64,000 bases of DNA, taken from Actinopolyspora lacussalsi (GTDB lineage: Bacteria > Actinomycetota > Actinomycetes > Mycobacteriales > Pseudonocardiaceae). Location: the NCBI GenBank assembly GCA_030803735.1, contig JAURUC010000001.1, forward strand, positions 1,559,501 through 1,623,500. The letters are read 5' to 3'. The notes beneath the pieces were generated by a model. That model searched no databases. It saw only the letters and a list, made by a program, of their open reading frames with translations, and was not told where the DNA came from. Below, piece by piece: positions 18,313-57,059 of the stretch (position 1 is its first letter; every line of letters starts with the position of its first letter). The translations under genes were made by a program, and so were the position numbers.

Positions 18313-18329
18313 GAAACGGCAGAACGAAC

Positions 18330-38881: not shown

Positions 38882-40192
38882 CTATGCGGTGAGAACGCCG
38901 CGGTTGTGGCGGAGAATCCACCCGACGAGAGCGAGAACGGCCCCTGCGATAATGGCCGTCTCGGCGATCGATCCGTTGGCTGCGTACATGCCACCGAACC
39001 CGGCCACTCCCAGAGCTGCACCCACCGCGAGGCTGGTTTCCTGGAGGGCTGCGGCACGCGCGACGTCCCTGGGTCCGACGCTCCCAAGCAGGTATGCGTC
39101 GCCGGACGCCATGGTGACTCCCACTCCCAGGCCGATCAGGAAGCTGGCAGGCCACACGCTGGTGAAAGCGGCTGCGAGAAGCCCGACGGCGCACGTGGCC
39201 AAGCTGACCTGCACGAGGTGCACCGGGGAAAACCGGGATTGCAGCTTGTGGAAGGCGAACCCGCCGAGCGAGACCCACAAAGCCAGAACAGAGACCGGCA
39301 CGATGGACAGCACTGAGCTGGCCTCTACGCTGAGAAGGAAGATCGATCCGGTGTAGCACGCAGAACCGAAGACGAGCGCGAGCGAACAGGCACCCACTCG
39401 GGAGAAGCTGAGCATGCGCACATCGATCAGCGGGTCGCTGGAGCGGAATTGACGTATGCAGAACACCGCCAGGATCGCACATCCGGCGCTCGTCGCCAGT
39501 ACTCGTACAAATCCCACGCCATGGCTCTGCAGGCCTCCCACAAAGAGCCCGAATCCGAGAAGAGCCAGGACCGACGACGCGACGTCGATCTTCGTCGACA
39601 TGGCTTGCCGCAACGTGATACCGCGCAACAACAGGGTCGTGAGCGATCCACACGTCAGGGCGACCACGGCAGGCAGCCAGAACAGCAAGGTGTATGCGCC
39701 GATGTCGACGAACACCCGGCCGAGCAATGGCCCCGTACCGGCTCCGATGCTGTATGTGGTGATCCACAGGGAATAGCCCAGCGTGCGCTCGGTGGTCTCC
39801 GGGAGACCACCGATAACCGAGGCGACGCTGGAGACGACCAACGCGTAGCCGAAACCCTGCACGAACCGGGTCGCTGTCCACGTCGCGGGTGAATCCAGTA
39901 GAGCAGGACCAGCGCTGGCGATCCCGAACACGAAGAGCCCAACCGACAACGTGACGCCAGGGCCCATTCGGGCACCAAGTCGGGATCCGAGAACGACACT
40001 CGCGGCAAGGGCGATCGTGTACCCGTCGATGAACCAGAGACGCCACGAATCGGTCAGCACCGGCAGGTCGTAGGCGACAGAGTTGAACAGTGTGGAGTCC
40101 ACACCGCCGAGGAATATGGGAATCAGAAGCAGCGGAAACAGAATCTTCTTGGGCACGGTGGGCCGTGCTGAAGCAAGAGTGATTCCCGTCAT
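38882..40192 (-). CDS. EmrB/QacA-type MFS exporter
   Basis: About 436 residues and 12-14 membrane segments of the DHA2-like major facilitator group. FIDGYTIALAASVVLGSRLG opens the typical second-helix region, and GFGYALVVSSVASVIGGLPE and TYSIGAGTGPLLG correspond to the drug-efflux motifs. Start set at the ATG 40192 (AAGG 6 bases upstream); an in-frame GTG at 40231 adds 13 residues. It lies beyond the ectD-type gene on the same strand and borders the hybrid ectoine cluster, so it probably exports that cluster's product or confers self-protection. Confidence 0.85.
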   Translation of the reverse strand: MTGITLASARPTVPKKILFPLLLIPIFLGGVDSTLFNSVAYDLPVLTDSWRLWFIDGYTIALAASVVLGSRLGARMGPGVTLSVGLFVFGIASAGPALLDSPATWTATRFVQGFGYALVVSSVASVIGGLPETTERTLGYSLWITTYSIGAGTGPLLGRVFVDIGAYTLLFWLPAVVALTCGSLTTLLLRGITLRQAMSTKIDVASSVLALLGFGLFVGGLQSHGVGFVRVLATSAGCAILAVFCIRQFRSSDPLIDVRMLSFSRVGACSLALVFGSACYTGSIFLLSVEASSVLSIVPVSVLALWVSLGGFAFHKLQSRFSPVHLVQVSLATCAVGLLAAAFTSVWPASFLIGLGVGVTMASGDAYLLGSVGPRDVARAAALQETSLAVGAALGVAGFGGMYAANGSIAETAIIAGAVLALVGWILRHNRGVLTA

Positions 40193-40300
40193 TGGCGGAC
40201 CTTCTGTCGGTAGGAATTCTGTGGCGATCACGAGAGAAGAGAGGGCAAGCCGACGTAATCCGGCGGCACCGTCGAGCTAGCCGTCCACCTCCGAGCCCGG

Positions 40301-40468: not shown

Positions 40469-41371
40469 CTATGTGGACGACACGGACGGGAACTCGCGGT
40501 TGCTGATGTGCTGCGGACGCGGTTTGACTGCGGCGAATGGGGCTTCCAGCGTGTTCTCCACGCTGTTGTAGACGATGAAGATGTTGGAGCGCGCGAACGG
40601 TGAGAGGTTCCCGTTGGAGCCGTGCAGCATGTTCGAGTCGAACATCACCGCGGACCCGGCGTCGCCGGTGATCTGCGCGATCCCGTGCTCGTCGGCCATG
40701 CGCGTGAGGTGCCGGTGATCCGGAGAGCCGACGCTGGGGCTGGCCACTTGCAGTGACTCCTTGTGATAATCCGGCGGCGTCTCGCCGATCGTGGGAAAGA
40801 ACAACTTGTGGCTGCCAGGGATGACCATGAGTGGGCCGTTGAACGGGAAGTTCGCGGTCAGCGAGATCGAGAGGCTGAACGCGCGCGGCTGCGGCATGCC
40901 ATCCTCCGAATGCCACGTCTCAAAATCAGAGTGCCAGTGGAACGGGGCGCCGCCGAATCCAGGCTTGTAGTTGACCCGGCTCTGGTGGATGTACACCTCG
41001 GAGCCGAGCACCTGGCGGGCGATGTCGGTGAGTCGGGGCGAGTGAAGCAGTTCGGCGAAGAGCTCGCTGACCTTCTCGACCTCGAAAAGGGATCGCATCT
41101 GATCGGAATCCGGCTCCAGGACTGCGCGCTCGCTCGCGCGCACCGCCGGATCCTCGCTGAGCCGCTTGACCTCTGCGAGATAGGTCTGCACCTCCTCGTC
41201 GGACAGCAATTCGTCGAGGACCAGGTAACCGTTGGACTCGTAATGGTCCAGCTGCTCCTTGTCGAGCGGGGTCAGGGCCTCTCCCCACACTGTCGGATCG
41301 ATTCGCGACTGAGGAACGGATTCACCGGTGATTCGGGTCGGATACAGGTCAGTGCGCACGGTGGCAGTCAT
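40469..41371 (-). CDS. ectD: Ectoine 5-hydroxylase (EctD-type)
   Basis: A 300-residue Fe(II)/2-oxoglutarate dioxygenase of the EctD/PhyH family. The metal site is His147 and Asp149 in FHWHSDFETWHSEDGMP, with the distal His250 in MLHGSNGN and the 2-oxoglutarate Arg following in FARSNIF. The conserved EctD tract continues into the MVIPGSHK loop. It would hydroxylate ectoine, or the ectoine-like product of the neighbouring operon. The start at 41371 has AAGGAG 8 bases upstream. It is divergent from the CGNR gene and detached from ectABC, unlike the usual ectABCD order. Confidence 0.92.
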   Translation of the reverse strand: MTATVRTDLYPTRITGESVPQSRIDPTVWGEALTPLDKEQLDHYESNGYLVLDELLSDEEVQTYLAEVKRLSEDPAVRASERAVLEPDSDQMRSLFEVEKVSELFAELLHSPRLTDIARQVLGSEVYIHQSRVNYKPGFGGAPFHWHSDFETWHSEDGMPQPRAFSLSISLTANFPFNGPLMVIPGSHKLFFPTIGETPPDYHKESLQVASPSVGSPDHRHLTRMADEHGIAQITGDAGSAVMFDSNMLHGSNGNLSPFARSNIFIVYNSVENTLEAPFAAVKPRPQHISNREFPSVSST

Positions 41372-41634: not shown

Positions 41635-42210
41635 ATGTCGGCCAGAGCATTTCCTGAATTCCGCCTGGGCAAGGTGTTGGCGACCAGCTTCACGGCGACT
41701 CTGACGGAACGATGCGGCGAGCCAGTGGAGCGCATCCCCGCGCCGTCCCGCCTCGTGGATTGGTTGGCGGTCTGGGGACTCATGGTCGACTCCTGCACCG
41801 AAACTCAGCTCGACCACGCTCGAGAGCTACGGGAGACAATCCATGCGGCCGTCACAGCAGCCGGCAATCAGAAGCCTGTTCCCTTCTGGGCTGTCCAGGG
41901 CATCAACGACTACAGCGTCGGCGGACAGGCCTCGGCGATCTTGACGTCCGAGGGCAGCCGCGAGTGGCGCCTGGGCTCTGCCTCCGTGGAAGACGCGCTC
42001 AGCGTGATCGCTGCCGACGCGATCAGCATCCTTGCAGGAGAGCGCCACGGACGGATCGCCTTGTGCGCGTCACCGACGTGCCAGGCCGCGTTTTTCGACA
42101 CCAGTCGAAGTGGCACACGGAGATGGTGCGAGATGAACACGTGTGGGAACCGCGAGAAGAAGTCACGCTTCTTCGCTAACAAGCGCAACAACTCGAGTCC
42201 GGTCGGCTGA
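41635..42210 (+). CDS. CGNR zinc-finger (ABATE-type) regulator
   Basis: A 191-residue protein. An N-terminal ABATE-like helical domain (DWLAVWGLMVD, LRETIHAAVTAAG) is followed by a C-terminal CGNR zinc finger: four Cys in CASPTCQAAFFD and RRWCEMNTCGNREKKSRFF. These proteins bind DNA and often sit next to biosynthetic genes. It lies between ectD and the LuxR-type gene and probably regulates the cluster. A strong hairpin 20 bases past its stop ends the transcript. Confidence 0.85.
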   Translation: MSARAFPEFRLGKVLATSFTATLTERCGEPVERIPAPSRLVDWLAVWGLMVDSCTETQLDHARELRETIHAAVTAAGNQKPVPFWAVQGINDYSVGGQASAILTSEGSREWRLGSASVEDALSVIAADAISILAGERHGRIALCASPTCQAAFFDTSRSGTRRWCEMNTCGNREKKSRFFANKRNNSSPVG

Positions 42211-42320: not shown

Positions 42321-43301
42321 ATGCTCGGCGTTCTGAAGATGGACACCACGGTCAAGACTGTCTACCGCGAGATGCTGGCGCACCCACAGAACGGTGTGGT
42401 CGATCTGATGCGCCGCCTCGAGCTGAGCGAGAAGTCGGTCCGCGCAGCGCTCGACACGCTCGGTGAGCTGGCTCTAGTGAGGCATTCTCCCGAAGATGCC
42501 CAGAGCTATCGCGTGGTCGACCCGTCGCTGGCCGCACAGATCCTGCTGGCCACGCAACGGGCCGAGTTCGCAGCGCAGGAGCAGCGTTTGCGGGAAGCTC
42601 AGGCCATCGCCGCGCAGCTCAAGTCAGAGTTCACGCTGGAAGGCGTCGGACACGACTCGCATCGTCTGACAGGGATCGACAGCATCCGCGAATACCTGTC
42701 GGCGCTGTGCAACGATGTCGAGAACGAGCTGTTGACGTTCGCCCCGGGTGGAGCCCAGACGGCGACCAATCTGCACAGTTCACGGCCGCTCGCCGAGAAC
42801 CTCCTGGAGCGGGGCGTGCAGATACGCACGGTGTACCTCGACAGCGTCCGCAACGATCCGCCCACGGTGGCGCACGCCGACTGGCTAGCCGCGCGTGGCG
42901 GGCAGGTAAGCACCGCCCCGTCGCTGCCGAACCGCATGATCATCTGTGACAGGCGAATCGCCATCGTCGCCGTCGACCCCGACGACACGGCCGCGGCGGC
43001 AGTGGTCCTGGAGACTGCAGGAGTGGTCTCGTCGCTGCACGCCCTGTTCGAGAGCGTCTGGCAGTCGGCCTCGTCGATGGGCACGACCGCACCTGCCGAG
43101 GCCTCGAGCCTGAGCCCGCAGCAGATGGAGACCTTGCGGCTCTTATCTCTGGGACACACCGACGACTACGTCGCGAAGCGGCTGGGCGTCTCGACTCGCA
43201 CGGCACGTCGCATCGCCACGAAGATCATGGAGCACCTCGGCGCGAGGAGTCGCTTCCAGGCCGGTGTGAAGGCGACCACAAGGGGATTCATTCGGTCTTG
43301 A
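42321..43301 (+). CDS. TrmB/LuxR-type transcriptional regulator
   Basis: A 326-residue regulator. An N-terminal winged helix (VVDLMRRLELSEKSVRAALD) is followed by a phospholipase D-like effector domain similar to TrmB-type proteins. The C-terminal LuxR helix-turn-helix (LSPQQMETLRLLSLGHTDDY, RLGVSTRTARRIATKIMEHL) is clear. Regulators of this layout are frequent pathway-specific controllers in actinomycete gene clusters. The ATG at 42321 has GGAG 8 bases upstream. It precedes the hybrid ectoine operon on the same strand. Confidence 0.85.
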   Translation: MLGVLKMDTTVKTVYREMLAHPQNGVVDLMRRLELSEKSVRAALDTLGELALVRHSPEDAQSYRVVDPSLAAQILLATQRAEFAAQEQRLREAQAIAAQLKSEFTLEGVGHDSHRLTGIDSIREYLSALCNDVENELLTFAPGGAQTATNLHSSRPLAENLLERGVQIRTVYLDSVRNDPPTVAHADWLAARGGQVSTAPSLPNRMIICDRRIAIVAVDPDDTAAAAVVLETAGVVSSLHALFESVWQSASSMGTTAPAEASSLSPQQMETLRLLSLGHTDDYVAKRLGVSTRTARRIATKIMEHLGARSRFQAGVKATTRGFIRS

Positions 43302-43366
43302 TCGTCAGTGCAGTCGCCGGTCGACAAGCAGCCGAAGGGACTCGACTATTCGAACGGAACTTCCTC

Positions 43367-43657
43367 ATGTATCTCGTACATCTCACTATCACGACCGCAG
43401 GCGACATCGCCCTGCCTGCTGAGATCAAACAGATGCTCGCGACTACCGCACCGGACGCTCTCGAACACGTTAGCCTGCATCTCCAGGCGAGGCCGCACCC
43501 TGTGATCAGCCTCTTTCTCCGCGCTGTCTCTCTGCAGGAGGCCGAGACGATGGCGAGGCAAATCTGGGAATGCGCTGTCGACGCAATACCCCAGTTGTCC
43601 GAATGGTCGCTTCTACGTGCTGAAGTTCCGCTTATTCCCTGCGAAGACGTAGAATGA
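43367..43657 (+). CDS. Small hypothetical protein
   Basis: About 96 residues starting MYLVHLTITTAGDIALPAEI, soluble, with no recognised domain. The ATG at 43367 is a guess; the frame is open from 43298, overlapping the regulator stop by 4 bases, so translation from an upstream codon is possible. It is followed by a 17-bp perfect hairpin, so it ends the regulator transcript. Confidence 0.55.
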   Translation: MYLVHLTITTAGDIALPAEIKQMLATTAPDALEHVSLHLQARPHPVISLFLRAVSLQEAETMARQIWECAVDAIPQLSEWSLLRAEVPLIPCEDVE

Positions 43658-44010: not shown

Positions 44011-45291
44011 ATGAAAACCGAGACTATCGACATTCAAGGGAATGCAATTTCGGCGCTCGTCGAGGAGTTCGGCACACCGCTGTTCGTCTACGACGCAGAC
44101 GTCATGGAACGCACTTATCACGAACTGCGTGACTTTCTCCCCGTCGGCGCCGACATCTTCTACTCGCTCAAGGCGAATCCGAACGTGAGTGTCTGCGCAA
44201 TGCTGAACTCGTTGGGTACCGGAGCTGAGGTCTCCTCCTACACCGAACTCGTCACCGCGCTGCGAGCCGGGGTCGCGCCCCGGGACGTCATCTTCCTCGG
44301 CCCTGGCAAGGACGAGCAGGAGCTCGCCGCGTGCATCGAGTCAGGTATCCACGCGATCGTCTGCGAATCACTGGACGAGCTCGACCTGCTGGACTCGCTG
44401 CTGGCGACGGCCGGACGGAACGAATTCCCGGTGCTGATGAGGATCAACCCCGCTTTCGGCAGCAAGGGATCAGGCTTGGCCATGGGAGGCAAGCCTCGGC
44501 AGTTCGGCATCGACGAAGTCGAACTACGCGACTCAAAGAGTCGGCTCGCAGCCCTGCAGAACATCCGAGTGAAGGGCGTGCACGCCTACATGGGCACGCG
44601 CTTCCTGAACCACGAGGACGTCGTCCACAACACCCGGCAGATCCTCGCTACCGCGGAGGAACTGGCTGGAGTGCTCGGTTTCCCTCTGGAGACCGTGGAC
44701 TTCGGCGGCGGCCTCGGCGTCGCCTACTTCGACAACGAGAACGACGTGGAACTCGCCGCGCTGGGTACCGGACTGACCGACGTCCTCTCCACTTTCTCCG
44801 CGCGCAACCCCCGGTGCCGGATGATCATGGAGTTGGGCCGGTTCCTCACGGCCATGGCAGGCACGTACATCGTCCGGGCCCGCTACGTGAAGGACTCCAT
44901 GGGCGAAAAGTTCGTGGTCGCCGACGGCGGCACCAACCACCACATGGCGGCCGTGGGAGTCGGAAGCTTCGTCAAGCGCAACTTCCCGATCCGACACCTG
45001 AGCAACACCGGAGCGCTGCGGACCTACACGGTGACCGGACCGCTGTGCACGCCCAACGACGTGGTCGGAAAGAAGGTCCAACTACCGGAAGTGCGGCCCG
45101 GGGACCTGCTGGCGGTGGAGCGGTCTGGTGCCTACGGGCCCACTGCGTCGCCCGGGCTCTTCCTCAGCCACGGATTCCCAGCCGAGGTGTTGGTGCACGG
45201 CGGGCAGCCCCATCTGGTCCGGGAACGCGACAGCGTCGAGGACCTGCTGGCCAAGCAGCACCTCGTCGATTTCCACCCGGCATTCCGATGA
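44011..45291 (+). CDS. PLP decarboxylase, BtrK/VinO-like
   Basis: A 426-residue fold-type III PLP enzyme of the diaminopimelate/ornithine decarboxylase superfamily. PLP lysine Lys54 is in FYSLKANPN; FGGGLGVAYFD is the phosphate-binding glycine region; ELGRFLTAMAG replaces the usual EPGR; and SGAYGPTASPGLFLSHGFP is the C-terminal active-site tract. The GAYG form, plus adjacent ligase and ACP genes, fits BtrK/VinO/FlvO-type enzymes that decarboxylate an amino acid while it is bound to an ACP. The alternative, a free diaminobutyrate or diaminopimelate decarboxylase, is less consistent with the neighbours. First gene of the operon; overlaps the next by ATGA. Confidence 0.83.
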   Translation: MKTETIDIQGNAISALVEEFGTPLFVYDADVMERTYHELRDFLPVGADIFYSLKANPNVSVCAMLNSLGTGAEVSSYTELVTALRAGVAPRDVIFLGPGKDEQELAACIESGIHAIVCESLDELDLLDSLLATAGRNEFPVLMRINPAFGSKGSGLAMGGKPRQFGIDEVELRDSKSRLAALQNIRVKGVHAYMGTRFLNHEDVVHNTRQILATAEELAGVLGFPLETVDFGGGLGVAYFDNENDVELAALGTGLTDVLSTFSARNPRCRMIMELGRFLTAMAGTYIVRARYVKDSMGEKFVVADGGTNHHMAAVGVGSFVKRNFPIRHLSNTGALRTYTVTGPLCTPNDVVGKKVQLPEVRPGDLLAVERSGAYGPTASPGLFLSHGFPAEVLVHGGQPHLVRERDSVEDLLAKQHLVDFHPAFR

Positions 45292-46175
45292 GCACCGCAG
45301 CACGTCGGGCCGCCCGGGTCGGAGTGGACGTCCTCGACCGCGCAGAACTCCATCGCCTGCTCGAACGCCCTTGGTTTCTGCGCTTCGGCTTCGCCCCGAA
45401 GGAACTCGCCCATGCCGAGACCTTAGGTGCCGAACGGCGCCTGGAGTTCCTGGCCGGCCGGTTCGCCGCGAAAGAAGCCGTTCTCAAGACCCTGGGAATC
45501 GGCTTCCTCCAGGGAGTGGCACCGCGGGAGATATGCGTCGAGCACGCACCTCATGGTGGTCCTGTCGTCCATTTTCAAGGGCGGGCCGCTGAACTGTCTC
45601 AGGGCTCCGTCGCGGTGTCGATCACCCACAAACAGAACGTCGTTGCCGCAGTCGCCGTCAGCCTTATCGCGAATGCCGATGCAGCAGCTAGGAACGGCCG
45701 ACCAGAACCGACTGAGTCAAAGGAGCCTGACGCCGTGTCGCCTCCGAGCACCACCACGACCGCTCAGACCACAGCCTTCCTCCGCGTGCGGATCGGTCAG
45801 GAAGAGGCCCACTACGGGGGTGATCTGGTGGATGGCGCCCGCATCCTGCGGATGTTCGGCGATCTGGTCACCGAGATCACTATCCGCACCGATGGCGACG
45901 AGGGCATGCTGTCCCAGTACAACGACCTCCGCTTCACCGCACCAGTGAAACCCGGCGACTACATCGAGGCCCGCGCGCGACTGGTGCGACAGACCAGACT
46001 GCGCCGAGTCGTCGAGCTCGAGGCGCACAAGGTGCTCAGCGCTCGCCCAGAAGCAGGAGAGAGCGCCGTCGCCGTCCTCGACGCGCCCCAACTCGTGTGC
46101 GCCGCCACCGCCATCACTGTCGTGCCTCACCGCAGGACGGACACAGCACGCACCCTCATCGCCGAGGAGAACTGA
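45288..46175 (+). CDS. Holo-ACP synthase fused to 3-aminobutyryl-CoA ammonia-lyase-like domain
   Basis: About 295 residues in one frame. Residues 10-130 are an AcpS-type phosphopantetheinyl transferase: VGVDVLDR, FAAKEAVLKTLG and VSITHKQN. Residues 165-290 are a hotdog domain matching 3-aminobutyryl-CoA/beta-alanyl-CoA ammonia lyases: EEAHYGGDLVDGARILRMFG, DEGMLSQYNDLRFTAPVKPG. The transferase would prime the ACP encoded at 47760; the lyase domain would eliminate ammonia from a beta-aminoacyl thioester. A GTG at 45735 with AAGGAG upstream lies at the junction, so the lyase may also be made separately. A real fusion and a sequence error joining two genes are both possible. Confidence 0.8.
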   Translation: MSTAARRAARVGVDVLDRAELHRLLERPWFLRFGFAPKELAHAETLGAERRLEFLAGRFAAKEAVLKTLGIGFLQGVAPREICVEHAPHGGPVVHFQGRAAELSQGSVAVSITHKQNVVAAVAVSLIANADAAARNGRPEPTESKEPDAVSPPSTTTTAQTTAFLRVRIGQEEAHYGGDLVDGARILRMFGDLVTEITIRTDGDEGMLSQYNDLRFTAPVKPGDYIEARARLVRQTRLRRVVELEAHKVLSARPEAGESAVAVLDAPQLVCAATAITVVPHRRTDTARTLIAEEN

Positions 46176-47710
46176 TGAGCCGCACAGCACAGCTGCTGCA
46201 CGGACTTCTGGACGCGGCGGCCGACCGTAGCCCTCAATCCACCGCGTTGAGCTCGCGAAACCACAGCCTGACTTACCAGGAACTCGCCACAGCGAGCACA
46301 ACCATGGCCGCTCTCCTGCAGCGCGAAGGACTGCGGCGTGGCGACCGGATCGTCGTCACCGCAGCCGACGGAATCGGCATCACCATGCTGGTCTACGCGG
46401 CCTCCCGGCTGGGTGCCGTCTTCAGCGTGCTGCACGAACAGGCACGCGGCGGACCACTCGAGCACGTGCTGCGCGATTGCGAACCCACACTGTTGGTGTC
46501 CGACGACCCCGAAGCAGGGCGGACTGCCGCCGAGCAGTCCGTACCGTTCCTCGACCTCGACGAGCTCGTTACGACAGCGCTCGACACAGGGAGCACACCC
46601 ACGCCCACCGGCCAGAACGTCCTGGCCGTGGATCCCGTCAGCCTGATCTACACCTCCGGGACCACCTCGCTGCCCAAGGCAGTGGTCAGTACTCATCAGC
46701 AGGTTCTCTTCGCCGTGTCCGCGATCCAGGAGTGCCTGGAGTATCGGGGCGACGACGTCGTGTACTGTCCGCTGCCGCTCTCCTTCGACTACGGCCTCTA
46801 CCAAATCTACCTGGCAGCCCTGAGCGGTGCCCGCCTGCACCTGGGCACTGTCGCCGAGTCCGGTCCACCGCTGCTGCGCAGCCTGGAAGACGTCGGAGCG
46901 ACCGTGCTGCCCTCGATGCCCTCCATCGCGGATCGGCTCGCCTGGCTGCTCAACCGCAGCAGCGAGGGACCGAGCCGGCTGCGCCTGCTCACCAACACCG
47001 GAGCGGCGTTGTCCGAAACCACCATGTCCGCGCTGCGCGCCGTGCTCCCTCATCTGCGGATCCAGGTCATGTACGGGCTCACGGAGTGCAAACGCACGGC
47101 GATCATGCCGCCGGACGGCGACCTCGACCACCCGGGCTCATGTGGATTGCCGCTGCCCGGCACCGAGGTCGTCGTCGTCGACGACGGCGGGAACCGGCTG
47201 CCTCCCGGCGAGATCGGCCAGTTCGTCGTGCGCGGTCCGAACGTCATGACCGGCTACTGGCGGCGTCCCGAGCTGACCGCCGAGCGCTTCCCCCGCACGG
47301 AGGGACTGTTCCCCGAGCTGCGCACCGGCGACTACGGCTGGCAGGACGACGAGGGTTATCTCTACTTCTCCGGCCGCCACGACGACCTCTACAAGGAACA
47401 GGGATTCCGGCTCAGCACCACCGAGGTCGAGGCCGCCGCGATCGGCGTCGACGGGGTGACCTCGGCCACGGTCCTGCCGCCCGAAGGTAAGCAAACCGCG
47501 CTCCTCGTGGTGGTCGCCGACATCACCGCCGACGAGGTGCGCGAGCGCATGCGCGACCACATTGAGCCCTTCAAGATCCCGCGGCGCTGCGTTCGCCTCG
47601 ACACCCTGCCCACCAACAGCAACGGCAAGGTCGACCGCAAGCAGCTGGCCGCTCTGGTCGATCCGACCCCGGCAACATCGGAGCCCTTGCGGGCCCATGT
47701 CTCCCACTGA
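46175..47710 (+). CDS. Acyl/aminoacyl-AMP ligase
   Basis: A 511-residue adenylate-forming enzyme. Core motifs: YTSGTTSLPKAVV (A3), FDYGLYQ (A4), YGLTECKR (A5), LRTGDYG (A7) and NSNGKVDRKQL (A10 with catalytic Lys). It resembles stand-alone ligases that load beta- or omega-amino acids onto discrete ACPs (VinN/FlvN type) and exosortase-associated ligases found beside similar decarboxylases and ACPs. It would activate an amino acid, perhaps aspartate through its beta-carboxylate, and load it on the following ACP. ATG 46175 shares a base with the previous stop; GAGGAG lies 6 bases upstream. Confidence 0.85.
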   Translation: MSRTAQLLHGLLDAAADRSPQSTALSSRNHSLTYQELATASTTMAALLQREGLRRGDRIVVTAADGIGITMLVYAASRLGAVFSVLHEQARGGPLEHVLRDCEPTLLVSDDPEAGRTAAEQSVPFLDLDELVTTALDTGSTPTPTGQNVLAVDPVSLIYTSGTTSLPKAVVSTHQQVLFAVSAIQECLEYRGDDVVYCPLPLSFDYGLYQIYLAALSGARLHLGTVAESGPPLLRSLEDVGATVLPSMPSIADRLAWLLNRSSEGPSRLRLLTNTGAALSETTMSALRAVLPHLRIQVMYGLTECKRTAIMPPDGDLDHPGSCGLPLPGTEVVVVDDGGNRLPPGEIGQFVVRGPNVMTGYWRRPELTAERFPRTEGLFPELRTGDYGWQDDEGYLYFSGRHDDLYKEQGFRLSTTEVEAAAIGVDGVTSATVLPPEGKQTALLVVVADITADEVRERMRDHIEPFKIPRRCVRLDTLPTNSNGKVDRKQLAALVDPTPATSEPLRAHVSH

Positions 47711-47759
47711 TCTCCACGCCCGATCACAGCAATCCTGCACCGAACGAAAGGACATCACC

Positions 47760-48023
47760 ATGGACCGCCAGAACGTCGTCACCGCGCTGGAGGACGCCCT
47801 CACCGAGGTGCTGGAGCGACCCGTCACCGGCCTCACCGGTGATGTGAAGCTCTTCGACGACCTGCACCTCGACTCCACGACCATGCTCGAAATGCTCATG
47901 GCGCTGGAGGATTCCATCGGCCTGGTCGTCGACCCCGAGGACCTGGACGTCGACGACTTCCTCTCGGTGGAGACCTTCACCGACTTCGTCCTCGCCGCGA
48001 CGTTCAAGGAGATGACGGCATGA
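47760..48023 (+). CDS. Discrete acyl carrier protein
   Basis: An 87-residue ACP with phosphopantetheine site Ser39 in DLHLDSTTMLEML and acidic helices II-III. GAAAGG precedes the ATG by about 7 bases. It overlaps ectB by ATGA. As the only free carrier protein in the operon, it is the expected partner of the ligase, decarboxylase and ammonia-lyase domain. Confidence 0.88.
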   Translation: MDRQNVVTALEDALTEVLERPVTGLTGDVKLFDDLHLDSTTMLEMLMALEDSIGLVVDPEDLDVDDFLSVETFTDFVLAATFKEMTA

Positions 48024-49282
48024 CGCTCACTCAGCCCGATTTGAGAGCATTCACGACCCTGGAGTCGGAGGCGCGCAGCTACTGCCGCAGCTGGCCCACC
48101 GTGTTTGACCGCGCGCAGGGCAGCCGCATGTACGACGAAGACGGGCACGAGTACCTGGACTTCTTCGCTGGCGCCGGAGCCCTCAACTACGGCCACAACA
48201 ACGCAGTGTTGAAGCGCGCCCTGCTCGACTACCTGGAACGCGACGGAGTCACTCACGGCCTGGATATGTCGACCATGGCCAAGCGCGCGTTCCTCGAACT
48301 CTTCCAGAACACGATCCTGGGTCCACGGCAACTGCCCTACAAGGTCATGTTCCCGGGCCCGACGGGCACCAACGCCGTCGAGTCCGCCCTCAAGCTAGCG
48401 CGCAAGGTAACCGGCCGCGAGACGGTCGTTTCTTTCACCAATGGCTTCCACGGCATGTCGCTGGGCTCCCTCGCGGTGACCGGTAACGCGTTCAAACGGG
48501 CAGGCGCGGGCGTTCCGCTCGTGCACACCACGACGATGCCCTTCGACAACTACCTGAACGGGACGACACCTGACTTTCTGTGGTTCGAGCGGTTGCTCGA
48601 GGACCACGGATCCGGGCTGGACCAGCCGGCCGCGGTGATCGTGGAGACTGTCCAGGGTGAGGGCGGCATCAACGTGGCAAGCCCGCAGTGGCTGCGTGCC
48701 CTCGCCGAGCTCTGCCGACGACAAGACATGCTGCTGATCGTTGACGACATCCAGATGGGCTGCGGTCGCACCGGAGCATTTTTCTCATTCGAGGAATCCG
48801 GCATCACCCCGGACATCGTCACTGTCTCCAAGTCCATCAGCGGCTACGGATTGCCCATGTCCCTCTGTCTGTTCCGACCAGAACTGGACGTCTGGGAACC
48901 GGGCGAACACAACGGCACCTTCCGCGGCAACAACCCCGCGTTCGTCACCGCGGCCGCCGCCCTCGGGACCTACTGGGCCGACGATGAGCTGGAGCGGCAG
49001 ACCGCGGTACACGCCCTGACCATCGAGGCTGTGCTGCGCGACATCGTCGCCCACCACAGCGGATCCGCCTACCGCGGCCGCGGAATGGCCTGGGGTCTGG
49101 AGCTCGACGATCACCGGCACGCCGGCCGCGCCGCCAGTCGGGCCTTCGAACACGGACTACTCGTCGAAACCGCTGGAGCACGTGGCGAGGTCGTCAAGCT
49201 GCTTCCCCCACTGACCATCACCACCGACGATCTCGACGACGGACTACACATCGTTCAGCGCGCCGTCGACGAAACGGCATGA
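48020..49282 (+). CDS. ectB: Diaminobutyrate-2-oxoglutarate transaminase
   Basis: A 420-residue class III PLP aminotransferase with EctB-specific features: FFAGAGALNYGHNN, MFPGPTGTNAVESALKLARK, IVDDIQMGCGRTGAFFSFEE (PLP-ring Asp) and Schiff-base Lys271 in VTVSKSISGYG. It forms L-2,4-diaminobutyrate from aspartate semialdehyde. It is translationally coupled to the ACP gene, which ties diaminobutyrate supply to the acyl-carrier machinery. Nothing suggests loss of function. Confidence 0.93.
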   Translation: MTLTQPDLRAFTTLESEARSYCRSWPTVFDRAQGSRMYDEDGHEYLDFFAGAGALNYGHNNAVLKRALLDYLERDGVTHGLDMSTMAKRAFLELFQNTILGPRQLPYKVMFPGPTGTNAVESALKLARKVTGRETVVSFTNGFHGMSLGSLAVTGNAFKRAGAGVPLVHTTTMPFDNYLNGTTPDFLWFERLLEDHGSGLDQPAAVIVETVQGEGGINVASPQWLRALAELCRRQDMLLIVDDIQMGCGRTGAFFSFEESGITPDIVTVSKSISGYGLPMSLCLFRPELDVWEPGEHNGTFRGNNPAFVTAAAALGTYWADDELERQTAVHALTIEAVLRDIVAHHSGSAYRGRGMAWGLELDDHRHAGRAASRAFEHGLLVETAGARGEVVKLLPPLTITTDDLDDGLHIVQRAVDETA

Positions 49283-49322
49283 GCGCACCCGGCACTGCGG
49301 ACAGCGAAAGGACTCACTCACC

Positions 49323-49862
49323 ATGACGACCACCGATGTCTCTGCGGCTCGCGCAGACCACGACACTGTCGGAACCAAGCAGGCGGCATTTCGGGCACCG
49401 ATGCCCCAGGACGCGCACGCCGTGTGGCAACTGGTCGAGAACACTCCCGGCCTGGACTCCAACAGCCGCTACCAATACATGCTGTGGTTCCGGGACTTCA
49501 CTGACGGTTCGCTGGTCGCGACCGTGGACGACGAGCTAGTCGGCTTCCTCACTGGCTACCGCCGACCCGATGAGCCCGATACCTACTTTGTCTGGCAGAC
49601 CGCTGTCAACGCGCGCCACGGCATCCCCTTTCTCGGCGTAAAACTCTTCCAGGCCGCAGCCGATCAGCAGGTAACCAATGGCGCCCGGTACGTCGAGGCC
49701 ACAGTCTCCGCAGAGAACAAGGCGATCATCATGGTGCTGAAGCAGTTCGCCAAGAAACACTCGGCCCCTATCGAGACGCGTGTGCTGTTCCCCAGCAGCC
49801 TCTTCTCCGACGGTCACCACGACGAGATCCTCTACCGGATCGGTCCGTTGACCGCTGCCTGA
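49323..49862 (+). CDS. ectA: Diaminobutyrate acyltransferase (EctA-like, altered donor motif)
   Basis: A 179-residue GNAT protein clearly of the EctA family: FRAPMPQDAHAVWQLVENTP, LDSNSRYQY, YRRPDEPDTYFVWQTAV, EATVSAENKAI and YRIGPLTAA. EctA normally acetylates diaminobutyrate from acetyl-CoA. Compared from memory with the Halomonas EctA, an ungapped alignment puts G100-I-P-F103-L-G105 where RGTGLA (the R-x-x-G-x-A pyrophosphate loop) is expected, so both the Arg and the central Gly are lost. The acyl donor may therefore not be acetyl-CoA; an ACP thioester from the same operon is an attractive alternative. Confidence 0.88.
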   Translation: MTTTDVSAARADHDTVGTKQAAFRAPMPQDAHAVWQLVENTPGLDSNSRYQYMLWFRDFTDGSLVATVDDELVGFLTGYRRPDEPDTYFVWQTAVNARHGIPFLGVKLFQAAADQQVTNGARYVEATVSAENKAIIMVLKQFAKKHSAPIETRVLFPSSLFSDGHHDEILYRIGPLTAA

Positions 49863-49907
49863 CTCCGTCCGCGTTCCTAAAACTGGGTCCGATTGGAGAG
49901 ATCTGCC

Positions 49908-51113
49908 ATGGCTCGGCAACCCACGACGTCATACCTCGACATCACCGGCGAGCACTTCCGCATGAACTCGGAAGAAGTCCGCAAAGCGCGAACCACACAC
50001 TGGTACGCGCGAACCGAATGGGGCATCGCCGTCCTGACCTACGAGGACAGCAGCTTCCTGCTGAAGCATCCCCAGCTGACCCAGGGGTCGGCGAAATGGC
50101 CGGCTCAACACGGAGTGGTCGGCGGGCGCTTCGACACGTGGTGGCAGAAGACGCTGCTCGTCCTAGAAGGAGACGAACACAACCGGATTCGGCGCCTGGT
50201 CAACCCGGCGTTCTCCGCGCGCCAGATAGAACCGATGCACGACCGGTTCCGGTCGCTCGCGGACGAGCTGATCGACGACTGGATCGACCACGGACAGACC
50301 GAGTTCGCCAGTGGTTTCGCCGCACCGTATGCGACAAGGATCCTGTGCATGATGCTGGGGATCGCCGAGCACGACTGGAAGAAGATCCACGAGCTCGCGG
50401 CCACCATCGGGCTGGGTCTCGGTGTCACCATCAAACAGAACATCGCTTCGATTGACGACGCCGTCGTCGAGCTCACTCGGTACGCGCGGTCCCTAGTCCA
50501 GAGTAGGAGAGAGTCACCTCGGAATGACGTCCTCAGCACGTTGGTGGCAACGCGGGACGCCGACGCCGGAAAACTCTCGGACGAGGAGCTGGTCAATCTC
50601 GTCATCCTGCTCATCTTCGCGGGGATCGACACTACCCGAAACCAGCTAGCACTGAGTATCGAGTCATTCTCGAAGCAGCCCGACCAATGGGAGAAACTGG
50701 CCGCAGATCCTGATCGATACGCCACCAAGGCGGTCGAGGAAGCGCTTCGGGTCAACCCGATCGGCCGATGGATCTCGCGCGAAGCTGCGGAAACCTTCCA
50801 GCACCGGGAGCGCACAATCGAGAAGGGTTCGACAGTGCATCTGTTCACCCTGATATCCGCCACCGATCCTGCCGAGTTCGGCAACCCGGACCGCATCGAC
50901 CTCGAAGTCGAGCGCTCGCCGCATTTCGCGTTCGGTGGCGGGATACACCATTGCCTGGGCCATTTCGTGGCCAGGGCCGACATCGGTGTGGCGCTCTCGG
51001 CGATGGCCACGCGCATTACCGACCTGCGCATCGGAGAAGGAGCCGAGTGGCTGCCCGACTCCGGAAACACAGGTGCGGTCACGTTGCCGATCACATTCGC
51101 CCAGCGTCACTGA
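49908..51113 (+). CDS. Cytochrome P450
   Basis: A 401-residue bacterial class I P450. The I-helix oxygen motif AGIDTT is at 238-243, ExxR is EALR at 278-281, and the heme-thiolate Cys349 is in FAFGGGIHHCLGHF. Start at 49908 with GGAGAG about 8 bases upstream. It is followed by its ferredoxin and a ferredoxin reductase, giving a complete three-component system inside the ectoine operon. Its substrate is probably the cyclic or acylated diaminobutyrate product. No P450 belongs to the known ectoine or 5-hydroxyectoine route. Confidence 0.93.
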   Translation: MARQPTTSYLDITGEHFRMNSEEVRKARTTHWYARTEWGIAVLTYEDSSFLLKHPQLTQGSAKWPAQHGVVGGRFDTWWQKTLLVLEGDEHNRIRRLVNPAFSARQIEPMHDRFRSLADELIDDWIDHGQTEFASGFAAPYATRILCMMLGIAEHDWKKIHELAATIGLGLGVTIKQNIASIDDAVVELTRYARSLVQSRRESPRNDVLSTLVATRDADAGKLSDEELVNLVILLIFAGIDTTRNQLALSIESFSKQPDQWEKLAADPDRYATKAVEEALRVNPIGRWISREAAETFQHRERTIEKGSTVHLFTLISATDPAEFGNPDRIDLEVERSPHFAFGGGIHHCLGHFVARADIGVALSAMATRITDLRIGEGAEWLPDSGNTGAVTLPITFAQRH

Positions 51114-51133
51114 GCTACTTTAGGGAGAACATC

Positions 51134-51331
51134 GTGAAGATCGTCGTCGACCAAGTAAAGTGCCAGAATCACGGACTGTGCGCGATTTCGGCTCCGGCCA
51201 ACTTCGCGCTCGACACTGACGGGAAACTCCAGTACCACGAGTCGTTCAATGAAGAGAACATCGACGACATCGAGGACGCTGTCGACTCCTGCCCTCTGCA
51301 GGCCATCACTCTGAGTCGTGATGCAGCATGA
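51134..51331 (+). CDS. P450-type ferredoxin, Cys-to-His ligand variant
   Basis: A 65-residue small ferredoxin. The cluster motif is C-x2-H-x2-C (CQNHGLC) with a final Cys in SCPL, the [3Fe-4S]/His variant common in actinomycete P450-associated ferredoxins. GTG start with AGGGAG 6 bases upstream. Its stop overlaps the reductase start (ATGA). It should pass electrons from the reductase to the P450. Confidence 0.9.
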   Translation: MKIVVDQVKCQNHGLCAISAPANFALDTDGKLQYHESFNEENIDDIEDAVDSCPLQAITLSRDAA

Positions 51332-52548
51332 CTGTCGACGGGCCAGTGGTTGGCGTGGTCGGCACCGGTATCGCCGGACTGCAGTCAGCGAACGCGGTAC
51401 TCGAGCGCAATCCTGATGCCAGGATCGTCATCTTCGGAGACGAGACCCACCGCACCTACAACCGGCCGGGTCTGACAAAGAAGAGGTACCAACTACTGAC
51501 CTCCGGCACGACCATCACCGACGAACTGAAGGTCGATGGAGCCGCAAGCGACAGCGCGACCTGGCGCCTGGGGACCCGGGTCGAATCCGCCGACCTGTAC
51601 AACAAGGTCCTGCAACTGAGGACCGGCGAGACATTCGACTACGACAGTCTCGTGATCGCCACAGGTGTACGCCCGCGGATCTCGGCCGAGGACGCCAGGG
51701 AGTGCGCGATCCACATGCACAAGACCCTGCGCGATCTCGACGACGCGCATCACATCCACCGTGATCTCCGGACGGGCACAGAACTGACGATCGTGGGTTC
51801 CGGATTCGTCGCCTGTGAGTTGGCCTCCCTAGCCACGGAGTACGGCTGTGCCGTCGCCATGCTGGAAGCGCGGCGACGTGGCCCATTCGAGCGCGTTCTG
51901 GGTGAACGCATCGCAACGGCGCTCGGGCGTTGGATGACCCGGAACGGCGTCACGTTCCTGACCGGCGATTCCGCGAGGGATCGGCTCTGCAACGGCGATT
52001 CCTCGGCGCACTCGGAGCCCTCGTCGGACCGATCTCTGCTCGTCGAGGCGATCGGCAGTGTTCCCAACGTGGAATGGCTGCACGGGAACGGTCTGGATCT
52101 GTCCGACGGTGTGCGCGTCGACGAACACATGCGCGTGCCAGAGTGCGCGGACGTGTACGCGGCTGGGGACGTCGCCCGCTACCCCGACCCGTGGACAGCG
52201 GAAAGCCTCACGCGCAGGGAGTTCTGGAAGAACGCGATCGACACCGGCGATCTCGCGGGTAGGTCGTTGGCGTCATCCCTGGGGTGCGGATCGAAGATCT
52301 CCCACATCAGGTACTTCCCTCTCATGAGCACCGAGGTCTTCGGACTGCGTATCCAGATCGCGGGAAACCCGAAGGCAGCCACCTCCATGGAGGTCGTCCG
52401 CGGAGATCTGGACCGGCTGGATCACGGAGTGGTCGTCACGTTCTCGAAGGAGGATCTATTGGTCGGAGTCGCTTATCTGGACAAGGGTGCTCGACTCAAC
52501 AGCATCTACATCGACCTTGTGAAAACGCTGAAGGCGCATCGGCGCTGA
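51328..52548 (+). CDS. FAD-dependent ferredoxin reductase
   Basis: A 406-residue pyridine-nucleotide-disulfide-type oxidoreductase. The N-terminal FAD motif is VGVVGTGIAGLQSA, the NAD(P) motif is LTIVGSGFVACELASLA, and the second FAD motif DVYAAGDVARYPD is near residue 275. This is the ferredoxin reductase of class I P450 systems. It is coupled to the ferredoxin gene and precedes ectC by about 40 bases. Confidence 0.9.
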   Translation: MTVDGPVVGVVGTGIAGLQSANAVLERNPDARIVIFGDETHRTYNRPGLTKKRYQLLTSGTTITDELKVDGAASDSATWRLGTRVESADLYNKVLQLRTGETFDYDSLVIATGVRPRISAEDARECAIHMHKTLRDLDDAHHIHRDLRTGTELTIVGSGFVACELASLATEYGCAVAMLEARRRGPFERVLGERIATALGRWMTRNGVTFLTGDSARDRLCNGDSSAHSEPSSDRSLLVEAIGSVPNVEWLHGNGLDLSDGVRVDEHMRVPECADVYAAGDVARYPDPWTAESLTRREFWKNAIDTGDLAGRSLASSLGCGSKISHIRYFPLMSTEVFGLRIQIAGNPKAATSMEVVRGDLDRLDHGVVVTFSKEDLLVGVAYLDKGARLNSIYIDLVKTLKAHRR

Positions 52549-52590
52549 TTCGGCTCATGCCGTACATAATTAATAATCAGGAGGATTATC

Positions 52591-53001
52591 ATGCAGGTTC
52601 GTAGGCTTTCGGACATCGAGGGCACAGATCGGGACGTCATGGCCGAATCCGGCACCTGGCGGAGCAAGCGCATCCTGCTCGCATCGGACGGGTTCGGTTA
52701 CTCCGTAGCCGAGACCGTGGTCTATGCCGGCACCGAAACGGACATCTGCTACGCGAACCACGTGGAGGCGGTGTTCTGCATCTCCGGCAAGATGATCCTG
52801 GTCGACCGGGACGAGGACGAGGAGCACGTCATCGAACCCGGCACCCTCCACATCCTCGACGATGCCGACAACCACACGATCAAGCCCATCGTCGACAGCA
52901 CGTTCCTGTGCATCTTCACGCCGCCGCTGACCGGACGTGAGGACCACGACGAGAACGGCGTGTACCCGCTGCTGACCGACGAGATCGTCGAATCGAAGTA
53001 G
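52591..53001 (+). CDS. ectC: Ectoine synthase (EctC) with altered metal-ligand position
   Basis: A 136-residue cupin of the EctC family: RRLSDIEGTDRDV, TWRSKR, YANHVEAVFCISG (Glu59) and FTPPLTGREDHDENGVYPLL. It closes N-acetyl-diaminobutyrate to ectoine. From memory, iron ligands in the Paenibacillus lautus enzyme are Glu57, Tyr85 and His93. The offset here is +2, so they map to Glu59, His87 and His95: the Tyr is replaced by His (GTLHILDDADNHT). This may alter metal or substrate preference. AGGAG lies 7 bases before the ATG. Confidence 0.9.
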   Translation: MQVRRLSDIEGTDRDVMAESGTWRSKRILLASDGFGYSVAETVVYAGTETDICYANHVEAVFCISGKMILVDRDEDEEHVIEPGTLHILDDADNHTIKPIVDSTFLCIFTPPLTGREDHDENGVYPLLTDEIVESK

Positions 53002-54841: not shown

Positions 54842-56188
54842 ATGAGCCTGTTAATCCAGAAGTTCGGCGGTACCTCGGTGGCGGACTCAGAAGGTCTGCG
54901 CAACGCCGCGCGGCGGATTGCCACCGCGCGGGAGGCCGGCCACTCGGTGGTGGCAGTCGTCTCGGCGATGGGCGGGTCCACCGACAACCTGGTCGGCCTA
55001 GCGGCCCAGCTCTCACAACGGCCCGCCGATCGGGAACTGGATCTGCTGCTCAGCACCGGAGAACTGGCATCGGCCTCGGCGCTGTCGATCGCACTGTGTG
55101 AGGTGGGTGTCAGCGCGGTGTCGTTCACCGGTCATGACGCCGGAATCATCACCGACGGGGTACACGGCCGGGCGCGCATCGTCGACGTCGACCCTTCGTT
55201 GCTGAAAATGCATCTCGACGAGGGCACAGTGCCGGTTGTGACCGGCTTCCAGGGGATTTCGAGTACTAGCGGCGAGCTCACAACGCTGGGTCGCGGCGGC
55301 TCGGACACCACCGCGGTCGCGCTGACCGCAGCACTGGGCGCAACAGCCTGCGAGATCTACACCGACATCGAGGGCGTGTTCACCGCCGACCCCCGCCATG
55401 TACCGGGCGCTTACAAGCTCGACTGCCTTGCCTACGAAGACATGTGTGAGCTCGCCGTCGGCGGTGCGAAGATCCTCGCGCACTCATCGGTGGAATACGC
55501 CAGCACTTACCAGGTGCCGGTGCACGTCCGCTCCAGCTTCGGCACCTCCGACGGCACATGGGTGAACAACCACTTCTGCAGGGGTCCGGCGGAGATCTTC
55601 AGCGAACGCTTCGTACCCACTGGCGTCGCGCACCAGACTGGACAGTCACACTGCAGACTCGGCGGTGTCGAGGAAGGTACGGCCGCCGCGGTGTTCGCTG
55701 CGCTGGCCGACGCCGCCATTCCCTTGGACATGGTCAGCTTCCGCACCCAAGAGGACGCCCTGCTGTTCACCGTGCAGACTGGCGACCAGCCGCGGGTGAG
55801 TGGTGTACTCGGCGAAATGCCTCGCAGCGCCTTCACCTCGTGCGACTGGTCGGAGCCGGTTGGCAAGGTCTCCCTGGTCGGGCGGGCGCTCAGCGCGCAC
55901 CCGCGGATACTGTCGCAGGTGCTGGAGTCCCTGCGCGATAGCGGCATAGTACTTGGCGACGTGGCCGTCTACGCCAAGCGTATTTCGGTGACCTGCCGCG
56001 AGGACGCCGTGATCAGTGCGGTCGCGACGTTACACAAGGCGTTCCTGGAGCGACAGCTGGAGAACGCCGGCACCGGATCGGCCAGGCTGGGCTGGCAGGA
56101 GTCGAAGGCTCTGCCAGTGCGGAGTCCGGACAAGGCCATGCGTGCGGCCGGGAACACGTTGGTGCGGACTGCGAAACGAGCGAACTGA
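54842..56188 (+). CDS. ask: Aspartate kinase (ectoine-associated type)
   Basis: A 448-residue aspartokinase: IQKFGGTSVADSEGLRNAAR at the N-terminus, TLGRGGSDTTAVALTAALGA at the substrate site, then two C-terminal ACT domains (VSFRTQEDALLFTVQ; KVSLVGRALSAHPRI). It phosphorylates aspartate, feeding aspartate semialdehyde to EctB. A dedicated copy next to ectoine genes usually serves to bypass feedback control. GAGGAG precedes the ATG by 6 bases. It lies between inverted resolvase fragments, so it may have arrived on a mobile element. Confidence 0.9.
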   Translation: MSLLIQKFGGTSVADSEGLRNAARRIATAREAGHSVVAVVSAMGGSTDNLVGLAAQLSQRPADRELDLLLSTGELASASALSIALCEVGVSAVSFTGHDAGIITDGVHGRARIVDVDPSLLKMHLDEGTVPVVTGFQGISSTSGELTTLGRGGSDTTAVALTAALGATACEIYTDIEGVFTADPRHVPGAYKLDCLAYEDMCELAVGGAKILAHSSVEYASTYQVPVHVRSSFGTSDGTWVNNHFCRGPAEIFSERFVPTGVAHQTGQSHCRLGGVEEGTAAAVFAALADAAIPLDMVSFRTQEDALLFTVQTGDQPRVSGVLGEMPRSAFTSCDWSEPVGKVSLVGRALSAHPRILSQVLESLRDSGIVLGDVAVYAKRISVTCREDAVISAVATLHKAFLERQLENAGTGSARLGWQESKALPVRSPDKAMRAAGNTLVRTAKRAN

Positions 56189-57000: not shown

Positions 57001-57050
57001 CTCCAGTCCACTTGTCTGATAATGGCGTTTATCAGACAAGTGGACTGGAG
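57001..57050. repeat. 22-bp perfect inverted repeat, candidate recombination core
   Basis: Arms 57001-57022 and 57029-57050 are exact complements around a 6-base centre (TGGCGT). It sits 9 bases before the start of a tyrosine recombinase. This geometry matches a tyrosine-recombinase crossover site with a 6-bp overlap, as at TnpI-type resolution sites. It could also be the recombinase operator. Confidence 0.65.
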
Positions 57051-57059
57051 GGGGCGTCG

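Follow-up and report, generated by a model that had tools for sequence, protein, structure and literature searches.

Ectoine synthesis is familiar as a defence against stress, with acetyl-coenzyme A (acetyl-CoA) as its one acyl donor. An operon of Actinopolyspora lacussalsi raises the question of whether ectoine enzymes can be supplied with a different one. At positions 44011–53001 of the 64,000-nucleotide stretch analysed here (GCA_030803735.1, contig JAURUC010000001.1, positions 1,559,501–1,623,500, forward strand; hereafter the window), genes for EctB, EctA and EctC are interleaved with those for an acyl carrier protein (ACP), an adenosine monophosphate (AMP) ligase, a decarboxylase, an ammonia-lyase-like protein and a cytochrome P450. 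Comparative sequence analysis moderately favours a route in which the operon produces N-gamma-acryloyl-diaminobutyrate together with a cyclised ectoine analogue of the 2-vinyl-ectoine type, by way of acryloyl-ACP made from aspartate.

The operon and its recurrence

The first-pass annotation of the window described ten consecutive genes on one strand, and all ten are present on the plus strand, with family searches agreeing with the names it gave. The operon begins with a BtrK-like pyridoxal phosphate (PLP) decarboxylase, a predicted aspartyl-ACP decarboxylase (44011–45291). It is followed by an AcpS phosphopantetheinyl transferase joined to a hot-dog domain resembling Kal and beta-alanyl-CoA:ammonia lyase (45288–46175; PF01648, NF052388), a VinN-like AMP ligase, which is predicted to attach L-aspartate to the ACP by its beta-carboxyl (46175–47710), and a stand-alone ACP (47760–48023; PF00550, PP-binding, 1.8e-05). 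EctB, the diaminobutyrate transaminase (48020–49282; TIGR02407, 653.6 bits versus a cut-off of 552.2), precedes a variant of EctA (ACYLTRANSFERASE; 49323–49862; TIGR02406, 140.7 bits versus 120.6) that is predicted to be an ACP-dependent diaminobutyrate acyltransferase. The last four genes encode the cytochrome P450 (49908–51113; PF00067, 3.6e-22), a 4Fe-4S ferredoxin (51134–51331; PF13459/PF13370), a flavin adenine dinucleotide-dependent ferredoxin reductase (51328–52548; PF07992, 7.4e-42) and an EctC variant in which the iron ligand Tyr84 is replaced by His (52591–53001; PF06339, 148 bits versus 27).

Most of these genes had been described as overlapping by ATGA, which does not hold. Four of the nine junctions overlap, three by ATGA (decarboxylase/AcpS, ACP/EctB and ferredoxin/reductase) and one by TGATG (Kal/ligase); the remaining five are gaps of 20–49 bp. 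The description of AcpS and the ammonia lyase as a fusion stands for the window, where one open frame runs unbroken, and a true fusion protein is likely. It is not certain, because an in-frame GTG at 45735 is preceded by AAAGGAG and because AcpS and Kal occupy separate frames in loci L011–L014 and L139. Translation from this GTG could also give the lyase as a protein of its own.

The decarboxylase, AcpS, Kal-type lyase, VinN-like ligase, ACP and EctA co-occur in 24 genomes in three layouts, and therefore the gene set is beyond chance. The 24 comprise the window, L003–L014, L108–L110, L112, L113, L130–L133, L139, and L134 with L187, which are two contigs of one draft. The decarboxylase of L011 ends at the contig end, and L010 is frameshifted and was omitted from trees and some residue counts. 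A first pattern scan of a species-genome collection with the AcpS-lyase protein as query gave 18 loci, 12 of which (L003–L014, all Streptomyces) have ligase, ACP, EctA and EctC nearby. The other six (L015–L020), on other actinobacterial contigs, have the lyase domain only, except that L017 and L020 also gave weak EctB- and ligase-like matches. Of 297 sampled genomes of the window's family, 129 had matches at E ≤ 1e-10, mostly through a single domain, and five had near-full-length matches with 61–100% identity. The two parts share one 301-residue open frame in G297 and are adjacent in G229 and at a second place of G064. In the Streptomyces order, 15 of 391 genomes matched at E ≤ 1e-40, three of which (G001, G005 and G011) were already known. 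Neighbourhoods were examined at seven places of the family sample and 12 of the Streptomyces-order sample. Fourteen control genomes gave no match to PF06339 (EctC); seven matched TIGR02406 (EctA), none above the cut-off, so weak EctA matches were left uncounted.

Layout I is found in nine genomes (window, L003–L007, L010, L108 and L133) with the order ectD, CGNR regulator, LuxR regulator, decarboxylase, AcpS-Kal, ligase, ACP, EctB, EctA, P450, ferredoxin, reductase and EctC. Four further genomes (L109 and L130–L132) have this layout without EctC and EctD; L130–L132 carry ferredoxin and reductase upstream, and L109 has no regulators. The P450 set is thus present in 13 of the 24 loci. Layout II, in three genomes (L008, L009 and L134 with L187), is without the P450 and contains EctB, EctC, EctA and ectD. 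Layout III, in eight (L011–L014, L110, L112, L113 and L139), contains EctC, EctA and mostly an AraC regulator and a major facilitator superfamily (MFS) transporter, and is without ectD and without a closely related P450.

The genome of the window (G000; one contig, 5.03 Mb) carries a second EctA-EctB-EctC set at 4.17 Mb. Further EctC matches lie outside the cluster in 12 of the 13 genomes first checked, one with fragments only. In the Streptomyces torulosus draft that holds L011, the cluster EctA and EctC are the sole copies found in the genome, and the fetched stretch is without EctB.

A separate branch of EctA

None of the 23 cluster EctAs (22 tested and that of the window) contains Q/RxxGxG/A, the GNAT acetyl-CoA-binding motif. 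It is replaced by RHG(I/V)PxLG, which reads RHGIPFLG at residues 98–105 of the window EctA. Of the 14 EctAs that these genomes carry elsewhere, 13 keep the motif. The columns that are invariant between the cluster EctAs and the second EctA of G000 include D45, N47, S48, Y50, W91, Q92, E125, H165 and E168. This pattern fits an enzyme whose acceptor side is kept and whose donor side has changed. An AlphaFold2 model of the window EctA (pLDDT 85) matched the EctA structures 6sll, 6sk1 and 3d3s in Foldseek, including diaminobutyrate- and CoA-bound structures. A tree of 22 of the 23 cluster sequences and 13 of the 14 others separated the two groups at 100/100, and we interpret the cluster EctAs as a branch of the family that depends on a carrier protein. 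The idea of an ordinary second ectoine operon was rejected, since the cluster EctAs have lost the motif and form their own clade and since the ACP module is conserved.

A counter-search that was capable of failing used EctA as query in place of the lyase (E ≤ 1e-45). It returned 13 of the 391 genomes of the Streptomyces order and seven of the 297 of the window's family. Fifteen of these 20 genomes carry the module, two hold apparent cluster remnants, two a CmlS-type halogenase, and one is of another kind. The remnants are L182 (G659), with EctA and a cut EctC, and L183 (G529), with a cut ligase, ACP, EctC and EctA; both also have AraC and MFS genes. In the halogenase loci, L185:9972–16080 (G561) and L186:7856–15739 (G200), an EctA of the motif-less clade is accompanied by an AMP ligase, the halogenase and a small protein with a DSM motif, to which none of the family models responded. 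The halogenase of L186 matches the CmlS equivalog with 1052.4 bits versus a cut-off of 900, and that of L185 has a CmlS_C domain. L186, whose host belongs to the window's own genus, also contains a phosphopantetheinyl transferase and EctB. The remaining locus, L184 (G530), has EctB, an ATP-grasp protein and a lysine/ornithine hydroxylase. Against the TIGR02406 cut-off of 120.6, the EctA of L184 lies below (111.2 bits) and that of L185 just above (121.1). The EctAs of L184, L185 and L186 fall inside the cluster clade at 100/100 in an extended tree of 21 cluster rows (L182, L183 and L187 added; L004, L007, L010, L013 and L132 omitted) and 12 of the 14 others. All five genomes of L182–L186 contain a further, higher-scoring EctA.

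Because the EctA query led to module, remnant and halogenase loci, and because three of the added EctAs group inside the clade, this EctA clade appears to extend beyond window-type operons and tends to adjoin a carrier-type acyl supply. L185 and L186 possibly encode a dichloroacetyl-diaminobutyrate pathway. It is plausible, though a little short of probable, that the motif-less EctAs form a distinct class of acyltransferases, which depend on a carrier protein and equip diaminobutyrate with an electrophilic group (acryloyl in the 24 genomes, dichloroacetyl in L186 and L185), and that EctC turns some of the products into reactive 2-substituted ectoines.

Predicted acyl supply, ring closure and oxidation

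The solved protein closest to the ligase is VinN (3wvn, 390.5 bits; next protein 236). The substrate-recognition residues of VinN given in PMC11253843 are D230, F231, S299, K330 and R331. The corresponding residues of the cluster ligases are D-Y-T-K-R in 22 of 23 loci, L010 being unreadable, and in all four ligases of loci L135–L138, which are without ect genes. According to PMC11284099, FlvN uses aspartate and VinN 3-methylaspartate. Glutamate mutase E had no match in G000, nor in seven of 12 other host genomes searched; therefore aspartate rather than 3-methylaspartate is the predicted substrate in G000. 3-Methylaspartate was rejected as the loaded amino acid for this genome and is possible in five of 13 hosts. 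The decarboxylase is nearer to BtrK (2j66/7ru7, 281 bits) than to diaminopimelate decarboxylase (178 bits, the next PDB match). Its PLP lysine and cysteine were found, and the lysine is kept in 30 of 31 loci, L011 being cut there; a BtrK/VinO-type activity is predicted. The carrier serine of the ACP, Ser39, is kept in all 31 loci examined. Residues 162–280 of the AcpS-Kal protein match NF052388 (3-aminobutyryl-CoA ammonia lyase, E 2e-40), and the best PDB match is beta-alanyl-CoA:ammonia lyase (4mtu, E 9.3e-14; next 0.028). Together, these relationships favour the predicted sequence from aspartate through aspartyl-ACP and beta-alanyl-ACP to acryloyl-ACP.

The ligase and the decarboxylase would suffice for beta-alanyl-ACP, and the lyase match is under its curated cut-off, so that the beta-alanyl group itself might be transferred. 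The products would then be N-gamma-beta-alanyl-diaminobutyrate and, through EctC, a 2-(2-aminoethyl) ectoine, and Kal would do something else or act later. However, none of the 24 genomes has the set without the lyase. Most loci keep the 15 conserved positions of this domain; L112 (I, H), L113 (G), L134 (H), L138 (R, C) and L141 (V) show changes, and L010 has a gap. As known Kal enzymes require a thioester, elimination is improbable once the group has been transferred. We consider transfer of beta-alanine unlikely and return to acryloyl as the favoured acyl group.

EctC binds its iron through Glu57, Tyr84 and His92 (numbering and residue roles as given in PMC6344544). The layout I EctCs keep Trp21, Ser23, Arg25, Thr40, Tyr52, Glu57, His92, Cys104 and Phe106. 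Tyr84 is His in all eight readable sequences, including that of the window (L010 is unreadable), and is kept in the 10 layout II and III EctCs tested and in all 31 others. Position 38 is Ala or Ser in layout I and His in 30 of 31 other EctCs compared. The 31 others include L155, the layout II cluster copy of G510, and L163, the second EctC of G640, counted as ordinary; four of them (L033, L035, L162 and L166) were omitted from the tree. In this tree, layout I forms its own branch at 100/100, and the layout II and III sequences are nested among Streptomyces EctCs.

The cluster EctC comes with a cluster EctD in layouts I and II and without one in layout III. EctC and EctD are both present in nine of the 13 loci with the P450 set and both absent from four (L109 and L130–L132). 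Three hosts of the latter (G634, G479 and G413) have one other EctC and EctD each. The fourth, G235, has no EctC match in its genome and no EctD above the cut-off. EctC as an obligate step was rejected on the strength of L109, L130–L132 and G235. A LysE-family gene, identified by Pfam in the L130 copy, is present in these four loci and also in L110; it would fit an open-chain amino-acid product.

The retention of the P450 set in the four loci without EctC and EctD implies that the P450 substrate probably arises before ring closure. The oxidation might even come earlier, on the ACP-bound acyl group or right after transfer, in which case layout I would carry an oxidised acrylate (an epoxide or hydroxy acid) on which the Tyr84His EctC works. 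The restriction of the changed ligand to layout I among the EctCs compared is in keeping with such an order, as is the retained P450 set. The sequence, however, gives no substrate, and the nearest solved P450 (3p3l, 194 bits) is a distant relative. So early an oxidation seems to us quite improbable. The preferred reading, with acryloyl transferred first, leaves the acyl-diaminobutyrate or the ring as the predicted P450 substrate. The heme cysteine of the P450 and the iron residues of EctD are kept in the loci bearing those genes.

Further genes flank the operon. The cluster-type EctD-like ectoine hydroxylase (40469–41371, minus strand; TIGR02408, 395 bits versus 336.5; best PDB match 4mhr) keeps its H/D/H iron residues and is the sole copy above the cut-off in G000. 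An MFS exporter (38885–40231, minus strand; PF07690, 1.4e-18) has relatives in L003–L007, L010, L108 and L133 and is kept beside EctC-bearing layout I clusters. On the plus strand, a CGNR zinc-finger-like regulator (41635–42210), so named from its CGNR motif, is present in layout I loci except L109, and a LuxR/GerE-type regulator (42321–43301; PF00196, 6.5e-07) in layout I, again except L109, and in layout II. Between the LuxR gene and the decarboxylase lies a small conserved protein without a family (43298–43657, plus strand; 11 relatives aligned), which had no Pfam match and no Foldseek match at E ≤ 0.001; its AlphaFold2 model (pLDDT 79.9) suggests a compact alpha/beta fold. Downstream, an aspartokinase (54842–56188, plus strand; NF005154, 392.3 bits versus 376) is a possible supplier of the diaminobutyrate precursor, and in L109 and L113 an aspartokinase relative also stands immediately ahead of the decarboxylase gene.

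Other neighbours vary. A Flavodoxin_2-fold quinone-reductase-like gene (L007:18047–18820) follows EctC in six of the nine layout I loci (L003–L007 and L133); it was not found in L108 or L010, and the window has an F420-type luciferase-like gene there. An AlkZ-like DNA glycosylase lies near two layout I clusters (L006:18696–19898, by Pfam, and L005:1412–2590; ~90% identical) and could provide self-protection against a DNA-reactive product or be an unrelated neighbour. Upstream in the window, at ~16789–26286, PfaD-family and FabA-like genes mark a polyunsaturated-fatty-acid/polyketide synthase-like cluster. At 57012–58169, downstream of the operon, lies a tyrosine-recombinase-like gene whose matches are under curated cut-offs. 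The AcpS-lyase had no match in the eight other sampled genomes of the genus, one of them of the same species, and the cluster is therefore patchy; this spread and the recombinase-like gene hint at mobility.

The proposed pathway and known systems

Based on gene content, conserved residues and the recurring layouts, we infer the following chemical steps, order of P450 and EctC, and product. The VinN-like ligase would load L-aspartate onto the ACP through its beta-carboxyl group, the BtrK-like enzyme would decarboxylate aspartyl-ACP to beta-alanyl-ACP, and the ammonia-lyase-like domain would convert the latter to acryloyl-ACP and ammonia. EctB would supply diaminobutyrate, and the motif-less EctA would move the acryloyl group from the ACP onto it. 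Ring closure to 2-vinyl-ectoine would fall, in layouts II and III, to an EctC of ordinary appearance, and the dedicated EctD of layout II would hydroxylate this ring. In layout I, to which the window belongs, the P450, served by its ferredoxin and reductase, would oxidise the acyl-diaminobutyrate or the ring; the Tyr84His EctC and EctD would act beside it, and the MFS protein would export the product. Loci without EctC and EctD would make an open-chain acylated amino acid.

The analysis partly supports the reading given in the first-pass annotation. The check proposed there, whether ect genes and the ligase-ACP-decarboxylase-lyase set are found together, came out clearly positive, with EctA present in all 24 genomes. 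Its route from aspartate through beta-alanyl-ACP to acryloyl-ACP agrees with the nearest solved relatives, the kept residues and the lack of a glutamate mutase match in G000, and the missing CoA-loop motif adds new support for the transfer step that it assigned to an EctA-like enzyme. Cyclisation by EctC as a general last step holds in part: most loci have a cluster EctC, and the four P450 loci without it, one of them in G235, and the His at position 84 of the readable layout I sequences speak against its generality.

Several observations weigh against the acryloyl pathway. EctB was not found in five of the 24 loci (L011, cut by the contig end, L013, L014, L110 and L139), and therefore diaminobutyrate would need another source there. 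The VinN pocket is identical at three positions (D, K and R) and similar at two (Y and T), and glutamate mutase is present in five of 13 host genomes. The lyase domain scores 137.9 bits, below the NCBIfam curated cut-off of 160 for 3-aminobutyryl-CoA ammonia lyase. One non-cluster EctA (L061) is without the strict motif, as is Bordetella EctA 3d3s in an alignment judged by eye, and the tree program issued a warning of long branches meeting where the cluster EctAs part from the others. The cluster EctC is missing from four of the 24 loci. Finally, the decarboxylase, ACP, AcpS and Kal occur without ect genes in the 20 kb fetched at eight loci (L111, L114, L135–L138, L140 and L141), four of which (L135–L138) contain the ligase. 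Pfam searches of neighbouring genes, mostly of one representative per gene family, identified polyketide synthase domains in L138, a KAS III-like protein in L135 and an ATP-grasp protein in L111, and these loci are possibly acryloyl starter-unit clusters. That the ACP set likewise makes a starter unit for another pathway in the window, beside a spare ectoine operon, is suggested by these eight loci and their three representatives and is nonetheless very improbable, since the intercalated gene order is kept across layouts, the ACP and EctB genes overlap in the window, the EctAs form their own clade without the CoA-loop motif, and 12 of 13 genomes have further EctC matches elsewhere.

If the acryloyl pathway is correct, specialised metabolism has taken over ectoine enzymes and feeds them an acyl group from aspartate that is bound to an ACP and reacts with thiols. 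It would yield a new class of amino-acid and tetrahydropyrimidine scaffolds, and an ACP-based means of sequestering acrylate. The RHGIP loop of EctA would serve as a sequence marker for clusters that could otherwise pass as ordinary ectoine loci. Searches of the open-licence PMC literature, which does not cover subscription papers, gave no title or abstract opening that describes an ectoine pathway linked to an ACP. The gene families themselves are known; the motif loss and separate clade of EctA are new here, and neither this combination of families nor the EctA change is known to us.

The pathway shares parts with several known systems. EctB, EctA, EctC and EctD all score above curated cut-offs. 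Residues kept in common with the ectoine/5-hydroxyectoine pathway include those that probably form the acceptor side of EctA and most of the substrate residues of EctC. It differs from that pathway in the cluster EctA without the CoA-loop motif, the His in place of Tyr84 in layout I EctC, and the additional ligase, ACP, decarboxylase, lyase and P450. In vicenistatin biosynthesis, VinN, VinL and VinO load a beta-amino acid and decarboxylate it on an ACP, as described in PMC11284099. The vicenistatin and fluvirucin systems (VinN-VinL-VinO, FlvN) resemble the operon in its VinN-nearest ligase, stand-alone ACP and PLP decarboxylase predicted to act on an ACP-bound amino acid, whereas the ammonia lyase and the EctA-type acyltransferase are particular to the operon. 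The decarboxylase is nearest to BtrK of the butirosin system (BtrI/BtrJ/BtrK), but the loader is a VinN-like AMP ligase and the predicted substrate is aspartyl rather than glutamyl. The lyase shares the hot-dog domain and motif residues with beta-alanyl-CoA:ammonia lyase and Kal; its place in an operon with ACP and AcpS predicts an ACP thioester rather than a CoA thioester as its substrate. The chloramphenicol CmlS route has a counterpart in L186, in which a CmlS equivalog and an AMP ligase stand beside a motif-less EctA and EctB. This likeness lies outside the window and shows no more than that sister EctAs adjoin a second kind of predicted carrier-bound acyl group.

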